Positions 57,566 to 59,602 of a stretch of 64,000 nucleotides of DNA are shown in pieces. Source of the stretch: Oscillospiraceae bacterium (GTDB lineage: Bacteria; Bacillota; Clostridia; Oscillospirales; Ruminococcaceae); the NCBI GenBank assembly GCA_017828975.1, contig JAGAJN010000016.1:1-64000 (forward strand), given 5' to 3'. Below the pieces are notes generated by a model, which did no database searches, was not told where the DNA came from, and was given only the letters and a program-made list of their open reading frames with translations. Within the stretch, counting starts at the first letter, position 1. Every line of letters begins with the position of its first letter. The position numbers and the translations under genes were made by a program.

Positions 57566-57601
57566 GAAAATGCAACTTTATATTTCTAAAGTTGCATTTT
57601 C
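57566..57601. terminator. Terminator after the GNAT gene
   Basis: A perfect 15-bp stem, GAAAATGCAACTTTA with TAAAGTTGCATTTTC, loop TATTTC, followed by ATTTTTG. Confidence 0.88.
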
Positions 57602-57686: not shown

Positions 57687-57715
57687 TTGACAAATGCTTT
57701 GAAATGATATATAAT
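57687..57715 (+). promoter_or_regulatory. Promoter of the ammonium transporter
   Basis: TTGACA at 57687-57692, 17-bp spacer, TATAAT at 57710-57715: full consensus. The start site (about 57722) is eight bases before the first ANTAR-type hairpin. A strong promoter fits control by antitermination downstream. Confidence 0.85.
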
Positions 57716-57729
57716 ACAATCATAGCAAA

Positions 57730-57780
57730 CAGCAATGGCGCTGAGTTACACAATGGAGTGTGACTTGGCGCCTATTTGTT
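57730..57780 (+). promoter_or_regulatory. Predicted ANTAR-type antitermination leader of amt
   Basis: Hairpin P1: CAGC (57730-57733), loop AATGGC, GCTG (57740-57743). Hairpin P2: AGTTACAC (57744-57751), loop AATGGA, GTGTGACT (57758-57765). Both six-base loops have A at position 1 and G at position 4, the mark of ANTAR-protein targets. The alternative fold is a 15-bp stem from GGCGC (57737-57741) through P2 to GCGCC (57768-57772), followed by TATTTGTTT, a terminator that consumes half of P1. An ANTAR protein bound to P1-P2 would prevent the terminator. The regulator gene is not in the window. Confidence 0.78.
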
Positions 57781-57865
57781 TAGCTGAAAATATTTTTTGA
57801 CCGCACAGGGAGCGAAACATTACTTCGTTTCGGATAAAGCGGTCGGTACCTTGGGAGGGGTAAAT

Positions 57866-59602
57866 ATGGATAACTCGATCTTAGACACGGTTCTGGGTGA
57901 AGTATTCGGTATATGGTTCCTTATCGGAGCTGCGCTGGTATTCTTCATGCAGGCAGGCTTTGCAATGGTGGAAACAGGCTTCACAAGAGCCAAAAACGCC
58001 GGTAACATTATTATGAAGAACCTTATGGACTTCTGTATCGGCGTTCCAATGTTCATTCTCATAGGCTTCAGCCTGCTGCTGGGCGAAGATGTTGTCGGTC
58101 TTATCGGCAAGCCCGGCTTTGATATCTTCACTTCATATGACAACTTTGACTGGTCCGGATTTGTTTTTAATATGGTATTCTGTGCAACAACTGCTACTAT
58201 CGTTTCCGGTGCAATGGCGGAAAGAACTAAATTCCTTTCCTATTGTATCTACTCGGGAATTATCAGCGGTCTTATCTATCCGATTGAAGCACACTGGATT
58301 TGGGGCGGCGGTTGGCTTGCTCAGCTTGGCTTCCACGATTTCGCAGGTTCCTGCGCAATTCATATGGTCGGCGGTATCTCCGCTCTTATCGGCGCAAAGA
58401 TCCTTGGGCCCCGTATCGGCAAGTTCGACACCGATAAGGACGGCAAGGTAACAAAGGTAAACGCTATCCCCGGACATTCTCTTACACTTGGCGCACTGGG
58501 CTGCTTTATCCTCTGGTTCGGCTGGTACGGATTCAATGGTGCAGCTGCAACCTCCGGTCCTCAGCTCGGTTCTATCTTCCTGACAACCACAGTTGCCCCC
58601 GCAGTTGCAACAGTCGTTTGTATGATATTCACTTGGCTGAAATACGGCAAACCCGATGTTTCTATGTGCCTTAACGCTTCTCTGGCAGGTCTTGTAGGTA
58701 TTACCGCAGGCTGTGATGTTATGGACGCCTTCGGTGCTGCAATGGTCGGCGTTGTTTCCGGTCTGCTGGTAGTATTCGGCGTATGGCTCCTTGACCACAA
58801 GCTTCACATTGACGACCCCGTTGGTGCTGTTGCGGTACATATGATGAACGGTATCTGGGGAACAGTTGCAGTTGGTCTTTTTGCGACAACTACTGCTCCC
58901 GACTGCACGATCAACGGTCTGTTCTACGGCGGCGGTGTTGATCTTCTCGGCAAACAGTGCCTCGGTGTTGTATCCGTAGCTGCTTGGACAACTGTTACAA
59001 TGATCATCGTATTCCAGGCTATCAAGCACACTATCGGTCTGAGAGCTTCCGCTGAGGAAGAGGTAAGAGGTCTGGACGTTACAGAGCACGGTCTTGCTTC
59101 CTCTTATGCAGACTTTATGCCCGCACCTGTACCCACAGTTCTGATGGGCAGCGTTCCCGCTGAGGTGCAAGGAGATGTTCCTGTGGACGCAGCTATCCCC
59201 GTAACGGTTACAAAGCGTGCTGACATCGAGAACTATCCCGACGAAAAGAACAAGTATACAAAGGTTTCCATAGTCTGCAAGCAGAGCAGATTTGAGTCCC
59301 TTAAATCCGCACTTAATGAGATCGGCGTAACGGGTATCACCGTAACACAGGTTCTCGGCTGCGGCGTTCAGAAGGGTGCAGGGGAAATGTACAGAGGTAC
59401 TCCCGTTGAGATCAATCTGCTGCCTAAGATCAAGGTTGAGGTCATTGTTTGCAAGGTTCCCGTTGAAACAGTCATCGAGGCTGCCCGCAAGGCTCTCTAC
59501 ACAGGTCATATCGGCGACGGTAAGATCTTCACCTATGATGTTGAAAATGTTATCAAGGTCAGAACAGGCGAGTCGGGTTATGCGGCTCTTCAGGACGACT
59601 AA
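57866..59602 (+). CDS. amt: Ammonium transporter fused to a C-terminal P-II domain
   Basis: A 578-residue protein. Residues about 1-410 are an Amt channel of eleven helices with the twin His near H204 (PGHSLTLGALG) and H325 (HMMNGIWGT). After a linker of about 50 residues, residues about 462-575 are a complete P-II domain: the T-loop region QKGAGEMYRGTPVEINLLPK, the ATP-binding TGHIGDGKIF and RTGESG. The Tyr that is uridylylated in E. coli GlnB (Tyr51) is replaced by Val (GTPVE). Normally GlnK is a separate protein that plugs AmtB; here the gate is built in. GGGAGGGG precedes the ATG. Confidence 0.95.
   Translation: MDNSILDTVLGEVFGIWFLIGAALVFFMQAGFAMVETGFTRAKNAGNIIMKNLMDFCIGVPMFILIGFSLLLGEDVVGLIGKPGFDIFTSYDNFDWSGFVFNMVFCATTATIVSGAMAERTKFLSYCIYSGIISGLIYPIEAHWIWGGGWLAQLGFHDFAGSCAIHMVGGISALIGAKILGPRIGKFDTDKDGKVTKVNAIPGHSLTLGALGCFILWFGWYGFNGAAATSGPQLGSIFLTTTVAPAVATVVCMIFTWLKYGKPDVSMCLNASLAGLVGITAGCDVMDAFGAAMVGVVSGLLVVFGVWLLDHKLHIDDPVGAVAVHMMNGIWGTVAVGLFATTTAPDCTINGLFYGGGVDLLGKQCLGVVSVAAWTTVTMIIVFQAIKHTIGLRASAEEEVRGLDVTEHGLASSYADFMPAPVPTVLMGSVPAEVQGDVPVDAAIPVTVTKRADIENYPDEKNKYTKVSIVCKQSRFESLKSALNEIGVTGITVTQVLGCGVQKGAGEMYRGTPVEINLLPKIKVEVIVCKVPVETVIEAARKALYTGHIGDGKIFTYDVENVIKVRTGESGYAALQDD

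Follow-up and report, generated by a model that had tools for sequence, protein, structure and literature searches.

The closest described counterpart of the leader analysed here is the EutV/eutP system of Enterococcus faecalis (PMC3369931, PMC8934654), in which an ANTAR regulator, hexaloops with A at position 1 and G at position 4 (A1/G4), a conserved closing pair and a mutually exclusive intrinsic terminator occur together with nitrogen-related genes. The A1/G4 hexaloop is a known ANTAR determinant, and Ramesh 2012 (PMC3369931) defined the target as a dual hairpin, with a loop distance of 24 nt in eutP (A29 to A53). Shortening or lengthening the linker, as well as changing the loops, harmed induction, and EutV needed both hairpins in vivo, which argues against one hexaloop being sufficient. 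The targets predicted in that work comprise the same gene classes (ammonium transporters, P-II and glutamate/glutamine synthase genes), and the association with ammonium transporters was already in print; unlike those described below, they were sought as dual hairpins and had to have a terminator that overlaps the second hairpin. Walshe 2022 (PMC8934654) reported that both hexaloops are out of reach for one EutV dimer, proposed a single hexaloop as the minimal target instead and called for further bioinformatic and experimental work on the importance of single hexaloops. Another likeness is offered by NitR, an ANTAR protein of Clostridium saccharobutylicum that is reported to induce the genes of the GS/GOGAT cycle by antitermination on nitrogen limitation (review PMC6316151, citing Stutz 2007); since this combination of a clostridial ANTAR protein, nitrogen-assimilation genes and antitermination has been published, ANTAR control of clostridial nitrogen genes is already known and not new. 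Actinobacterial ANTAR RNAs (PMC8164766) share the A1/G4 hexaloop stem-loops, but they are dual, with linkers of 2-25 nt, few terminators and many locations at ribosome-binding sites.

The DNA stretch analysed here (64,000 nucleotides from an Oscillospiraceae bacterium, hereafter the window) contains an amtB gene preceded by the elements listed in Table 1. The two adjoining hairpins with AATGGC and AATGGA loops, P1 and P2, were located as the sequence-only reading had described them, P1 beginning about 8 nt after the inferred start of a consensus promoter (TTGACA, 17 nt, TATAAT), and both loops are A1/G4 hexaloops. The 64-nt leader folded with -32.2 kcal/mol (z -6.8), a value as low as that being found in none of 200 shuffles, and when pairs of A1/G4 hexaloops were scanned for, the window reached -13.7 kcal/mol, whereas not even -6 was attained by any of 405 shuffles (81 regions, 5 each). 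The loops of P1 and P2 lie 18 nt apart. The absence of a linker, also proposed from the sequence, holds when P2 is drawn with 8 bp; with a 4-bp P2 the linker measures 4 nt. Linkers in eut leaders span 5-12 nt, against 0-4 nt in the window. A search of the leader against Rfam returned no family above cut-off, and its best match, rli56 (25 bits, cut-off 47), was set aside as a chance hit.

Table 1 Elements of the amtB upstream region in the window (positions count from the first nucleotide of the window).
Element	Position	Strand	Basis and remarks
-35 box TTGACA	57687..57692	+	sequence
-10 box TATAAT	57710..57715	+	sequence; 17-nt spacer from -35
Transcription start, predicted	~57722	+	inferred from promoter
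P1 CAGC[AATGGC]GCTG	57730..57743	+	4-bp stem; hexaloop with A1, G4; closing C-G; proposed switch/antiterminator; stem pairing kept across orthologous leaders
P2 AGTTACAC[AATGGA]GTGTGACT	57744..57765	+	8-bp stem; second hexaloop; terminator apex; folded in both states
Intrinsic terminator stem, 15 bp	57737..57772	+	5' arm made of P1 loop end, P1 3' arm and P2 5' arm; helix covaries in alignment A1
T tract TATTTGTTT, weak	57773..57781	+	sequence; sister species: TTTTTGTTA
Extra hairpin between terminator and ribosome-binding site	57797..57846	+	fold of 71-nt stretch, z -3.1, 2/200 shuffles as low
Ribosome-binding site GGGAGGGG	57853..57860	+	sequence
amtB, ammonium transporter with fused C-terminal P-II domain	57866..59602	+	Pfam PF00909 400.1 bits, PF00543 80.0 bits

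Two further structures were noticed around the leader. The extra hairpin downstream of the terminator has the form ACCGC...GCGGT with an inner stem and without a T tract, and a similar sequence is present in the sister species. Between an acetyltransferase gene and the amtB promoter, inspection by eye revealed an inverted repeat (GAAAATGCAACTTTA...TAAAGTTGCATTTTC, 57566-57601) followed by T-rich sequence, which most likely terminates transcription from the upstream gene.

When the folding of the growing RNA was computed, assuming 9 nt hidden in the polymerase, P1 formed on exposure up to position 57743, P1 and P2 were present together until 57768, and the terminator took over from 57769; the computed end states had -14.2 kcal/mol (P1 plus P2) and -26.0 kcal/mol (terminator). 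The pairs of P2 are those of the upper half of the terminator, so that only P1 is exclusive with the terminator and, in the computation, P1 alone is lost on termination. Being folded in both states, P2 cannot itself be the switch. The sequence-only reading had described a 15-bp terminator stem taking in all of P2, and two mutually exclusive folds: the stem has that length and extent and the exclusion applies to P1 against the terminator, but P2 is not disrupted, its pairs constituting the top of the stem. This is the reverse of eutP, where termination leaves P1 intact and it is P2 that becomes part of the terminator (PMC3369931, PMC8934654).

We consider it very probable that the window leader is an ANTAR-controlled transcription attenuator of amtB, as predicted from the sequence, with the mechanism revised in that P1, and not P2, would compete with the terminator; a caveat to this reading is the weak T tract. 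In the mechanism that we propose, RNA polymerase would start about 8 nt before P1, and P1 would fold first and P2 next, as in the computed pathway. Unaided, the lower stem of the terminator would invade P1 and capture the GGCGCTG segment that makes up part of its loop and its 3' arm, whereupon transcription would stop. Under nitrogen shortage, the sole ANTAR protein of the genome would bind the A1/G4 hexaloop of P1 and hold this hairpin shut, the base of the terminator could then not form and amtB would be transcribed. The role of P2 would most likely be that of a second grip for an ANTAR dimer, or of a docking site. For the window leader, we infer the direction of the regulation, the binding of the protein and the signal.

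Conservation was addressed in 81 amtB upstream regions of up to 450 nt per locus, namely those of the window, of a sister species and of 79 of the best 80 of at least 587 amtB loci (L080 was left out, having no upstream sequence). Judged by eye, the sister species shares P1, the loop of P2 and the terminator with the window, and two changes in the P2 stem kept the pairing. A scan for modules (an A1/G4 hexaloop whose stem has 4 bp or more and which a terminator overlaps) was positive in 52 of the 81 regions (67 modules), the sister species included, versus 6 of 1,620 shuffles and 17 of 1,498 antisense tiles of the same loci; the A1/G4 hexaloop and the competing terminator are therefore kept in these 52 orthologous leaders, as would be expected from the sequence-only reading, and 29 regions had no module. 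Seven of these 29 showed, just upstream of the gene, a YWP-P-YG motif that we take for the terminal motif of glutamine synthetase; in these cases amtB may be the second gene of an operon whose promoter lies further up.

Features of the loop that the scan had not imposed were nearly constant as well: the closing pair was C-G in all 67 modules, A2 was present in 65 and G5 in 62, giving the consensus C[AANGGN]G in the orthologous leaders. When only C[AANGNN]G and an overlapping terminator were demanded, 76 cases were obtained in 61 of the 81 regions, and 65 of the 76 also formed the next three pairs of the stem under the closing pair, while permutation of the arms gave a mean of 15.6 and a maximum of 27 in 2000 rounds. 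This count, for which no stem had been demanded, is a cleaner test of pairing than covariation scores, which are inflated by kinship and come from modules whose stems the scan had already required. With this proviso, in an alignment of 32 of 65 modules picked by length (alignment A1) the covariation score was 0.770 for P1 (0.253 shuffled) and 0.648 for the terminator (0.255 shuffled), and in both cases none of 500 shuffles scored as high. In the same alignment, the P1 pairs changed on both sides were not above shuffles (198 of 500 reached the count), nor was the number of P1 pair types clearly so (47 of 500). A stem-loop at the 5' end can stabilise an RNA in general, and ANTAR binding to the window hairpin is a prediction; the leader might thus be a constitutive or growth-rate attenuator, in which the 5' hairpin shields the end of the RNA and basal expression of amtB depends on the terminator, with no protein involved. 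We regard this as highly improbable, given that A2, G5 and the closing C-G stay constant or nearly so while the stems vary, and that modules co-occur with ANTAR genes (see below).

The number of hexaloops required was approached with a pool of 119 distinct strict modules (motif, three P1 pairs and overlapping terminator), 61 from amtB regions and 58 from other loci, some of which also lie before amtB. In 111 of the 119, no second C[AANGNN]G hairpin was found at a linker of up to 25 nt; the 8 rows with a partner correspond to 7 leaders, one of them counted from both sides. A search confined to the 45 nt preceding the loop recognised a sigma-70-like promoter for 84 modules. The gap between the -10 box and the P1 arm was 8-11 nt in 49 of these and 5-13 nt in 70, and 13 nt in the window when counted by hand; such short gaps place the hairpin near the 5' end of the RNA and leave little room for another one upstream. 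These data weigh against a canonical EutV-type target, in which an ANTAR dimer would depend on contacts with P1 as well as P2, the partners of single-hexaloop leaders having escaped our scans, as does the terminator, which spares P2 and breaks P1, opposite to eutP. We nevertheless judge such a target a minor but real possibility. The window does carry two A1/G4 hexaloops, at a distance near the 24 nt of eutP, and loose partners (A1/G4, 3 bp, linker of 0-12 nt) accompanied 25 of the 119 modules, above the 9.2% obtained with shuffled flanks, some of them being compact cases like that of the window. Moreover, a C[AANGNN]G hexaloop crowned the terminator in 7 of the 119 modules and in none of 350 other terminators of loci L002-L081 (p ~6e-5, calculated by hand and uncorrected for kinship), which is unlikely to be chance and makes P2 probably a real second site.

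All the compact leaders (window, sister species, L004, L059, L062, L071 and L232) precede amtB, and their P1-P2 distances are 18-22 nt. The compact layout had been considered unusual from the sequence; it is so less for the missing linker than for the proposed P1 switch in a layout that mostly has a single hexaloop, most modules of relatives being without the second hexaloop of the eut leaders. The only other hit above 30 bits in the own genome with model R1, which represents the terminator structure only, was at contig C2:89090-89134 (33.9 bits; L116 around 1505, minus strand). It is a single-hexaloop module, GAAAC[AAGGGC]GTTTC, with a terminator, before a gene for a circularly permuted ATP-grasp protein; a module lies likewise before a gene of this family in L160. 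Eight R1 hits of at most 23.3 bits in this genome were discarded, one being the opposite-strand reading of the same site (L117) and seven having no module by the scanner. The scanner does yield false positives, among them a hairpin closed by a G-C pair within the acetyltransferase gene (L115 at 1115). Since most modules of relatives and the second target of the own genome have only a P1-type hexaloop, a single one would seem sufficient in this lineage, judging from these sequences.

The presence of an ANTAR gene in the genome, on which the sequence-only reading depended, was confirmed by a single match (PF03861, 62.9 bits, cut-off 27.3) in the 2.57-Mb assembly (94.67% complete), whereas the same search in 14 control genomes gave no match. 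The 188-aa gene is located on another contig than the window, directly 3' of a glutamate-synthase gene of the GXGXG type, and class-II amidotransferase and glutamate-synthase genes belong to the same cluster. A module before this cluster was sought, and none was seen by eye in the stretch viewed nor hit by the model. By sequence, the solved relatives of the protein are Rv1626 (44.5 bits), EutV (39.8), NasR (29.8) and AmiR (24.3). The alignment places an isoleucine at the position of the phosphorylated Asp54 of EutV, so that the phospho-acceptor Asp is absent, and Pfam found no receiver domain in the protein; activation by phosphorylation as in EutV is therefore unlikely. A regulator with a pseudo-receiver that cannot be phosphorylated is also found in the AmiR/AmiC system, where AmiR is instead controlled by AmiC (PMC8934654). 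In an alignment of 31 regulators (the own protein plus 30 loci from the ANTAR search of relatives), read by eye, only L101, L111 and L114 had an Asp at the Asp54 position, and the acidic pair after the first strand was seen in none. Of the two EutV residues whose roles are described in PMC8934654, the own protein keeps the one matching Met172 and has a His in place of Tyr164, as read from the alignment.

ANTAR genes and modules also tended to occur together. An ANTAR gene was detected in 49 of 50 genomes (50 of the 80 behind the amtB loci), and the remaining one, G040 (locus L049), has neither an ANTAR gene nor a module before amtB, a case that says little because many other module-less regions belong to ANTAR-positive genomes. 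Model R1, which because of its training on amtB leaders is not independent of the sequence of the P1 arm, was run on 61 relatives in which ANTAR genes were likewise sought, and 65 of the hits listed, covering each of the 53 genomes that had any, were examined, usually the best hit only; the 8 genomes without a hit were counted as negative. Among the hits examined, strict modules were present in 27 of the 42 ANTAR-positive and 2 of the 19 ANTAR-negative relatives (Fisher p 9e-5, kinship ignored), more hits having been opened for some genomes, chiefly G103 (the best and 4 further). The two ANTAR-negative genomes with a module are G090 (55% complete) and G103, and 15 of the 42 ANTAR-positive relatives had no module among the hits examined. 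This co-occurrence also bears on the idea that the reader of the hexaloop is another RNA-binding antiterminator or a small-molecule RNA switch; in its favour, the location of the ANTAR gene on another contig and the predicted nature of the ANTAR-hairpin link can be adduced. We give it very little credence: apart from the co-occurrence, the A1/G4 hexaloop is an ANTAR hallmark (PMC3369931), no Rfam family reached its cut-off in the leader, and a 14-nt hairpin would seem too small for a known aptamer.

Tandem modules, 63-80 nt apart and each with its own terminator, were found in the Ruminococcus-type leaders L003, L008, L009, L014, L018, L024 and L035. Five of the 50 genomes had two full-length ANTAR matches, all with two modules before amtB, and 7 further two-module genomes of the 50 showed one ANTAR gene; these lineages are related. 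Perhaps each module in the tandem leaders has its own regulator, which we offer as a lead only. In L003, L008, L018, L024 and L035, whose genomes have two ANTAR matches, a CAGC-type module is followed by one of the TACAC or TGCAC type, and L009 and L014 have a similar pair and one ANTAR match. In G018, G024 and G033, one ANTAR gene shares the contig of the amtB leader, at a distance of about 8 kb, and in G003 and G008 an ANTAR gene is probably near the leader too, if contig numbers match loci. L008 and L035 are labelled Alistipes, with a Ruminococcus-like amtB gene and leader, and these bin names are probably wrong.

Twenty proteins encoded downstream of modules were put to Pfam; they had been picked for variety, and the tallies are therefore not frequencies. 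Five were type III glutamine synthetases, 5 class-II glutamine amidotransferases of the glutamate-synthase type, 3 ammonium transporters and 2 circularly permuted ATP-grasp proteins; one each was of the glutamate-dehydrogenase type, a sodium:alanine symporter, an extracellular binding protein, an amidotransferase with a phosphoribosyltransferase domain and a protein with a RelA/SpoT region. The last few of these targets lie outside core nitrogen assimilation and there may be chance hits among them. The module before the RelA/SpoT-region gene, in L158, is possibly a link between nitrogen control and the alarmone, or a chance hit. At L131, L132, L155 and L156, divergent nitrogen genes (glutamine synthetase or amtB on one side, the glutamate synthase type on the other) have a hexaloop module on each side.

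We hold, with moderate confidence, that in Ruminococcaceae, Lachnospiraceae and related Clostridia a nitrogen-assimilation regulon comprising amtB, type III glutamine synthetase, glutamate synthase, glutamate dehydrogenase and the circularly permuted ATP-grasp protein is run by ANTAR proteins, most of them with degenerate receivers, that read a single 5'-end hexaloop acting as the antiterminator, and that the window leader is a derived two-grip form whose second hexaloop crowns the terminator. If this is true, the dual-hairpin rule of EutV would be one special case. What looks new here is the layout with the P1 switch at the 5' end of the RNA, the single hexaloop in most modules of relatives and the compact two-hexaloop form of the window; titles and the beginnings of abstracts of the open-licence papers listed in literature searches revealed no paper on single-hexaloop nitrogen leaders. 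Nature thus provides, in these leaders, a collection of cases in which a single hexaloop stands with a single terminator, together with a compact two-hexaloop form; it bears on the question left in PMC8934654 and makes that question directly testable with short RNAs. For the biology of the group, the results suggest that RNA attenuation may be the means by which a large set of anaerobes turns ammonium assimilation on and off, the regulators being, as their aligned sequences indicate, mostly of a kind that would not be phosphorylatable in the usual way.
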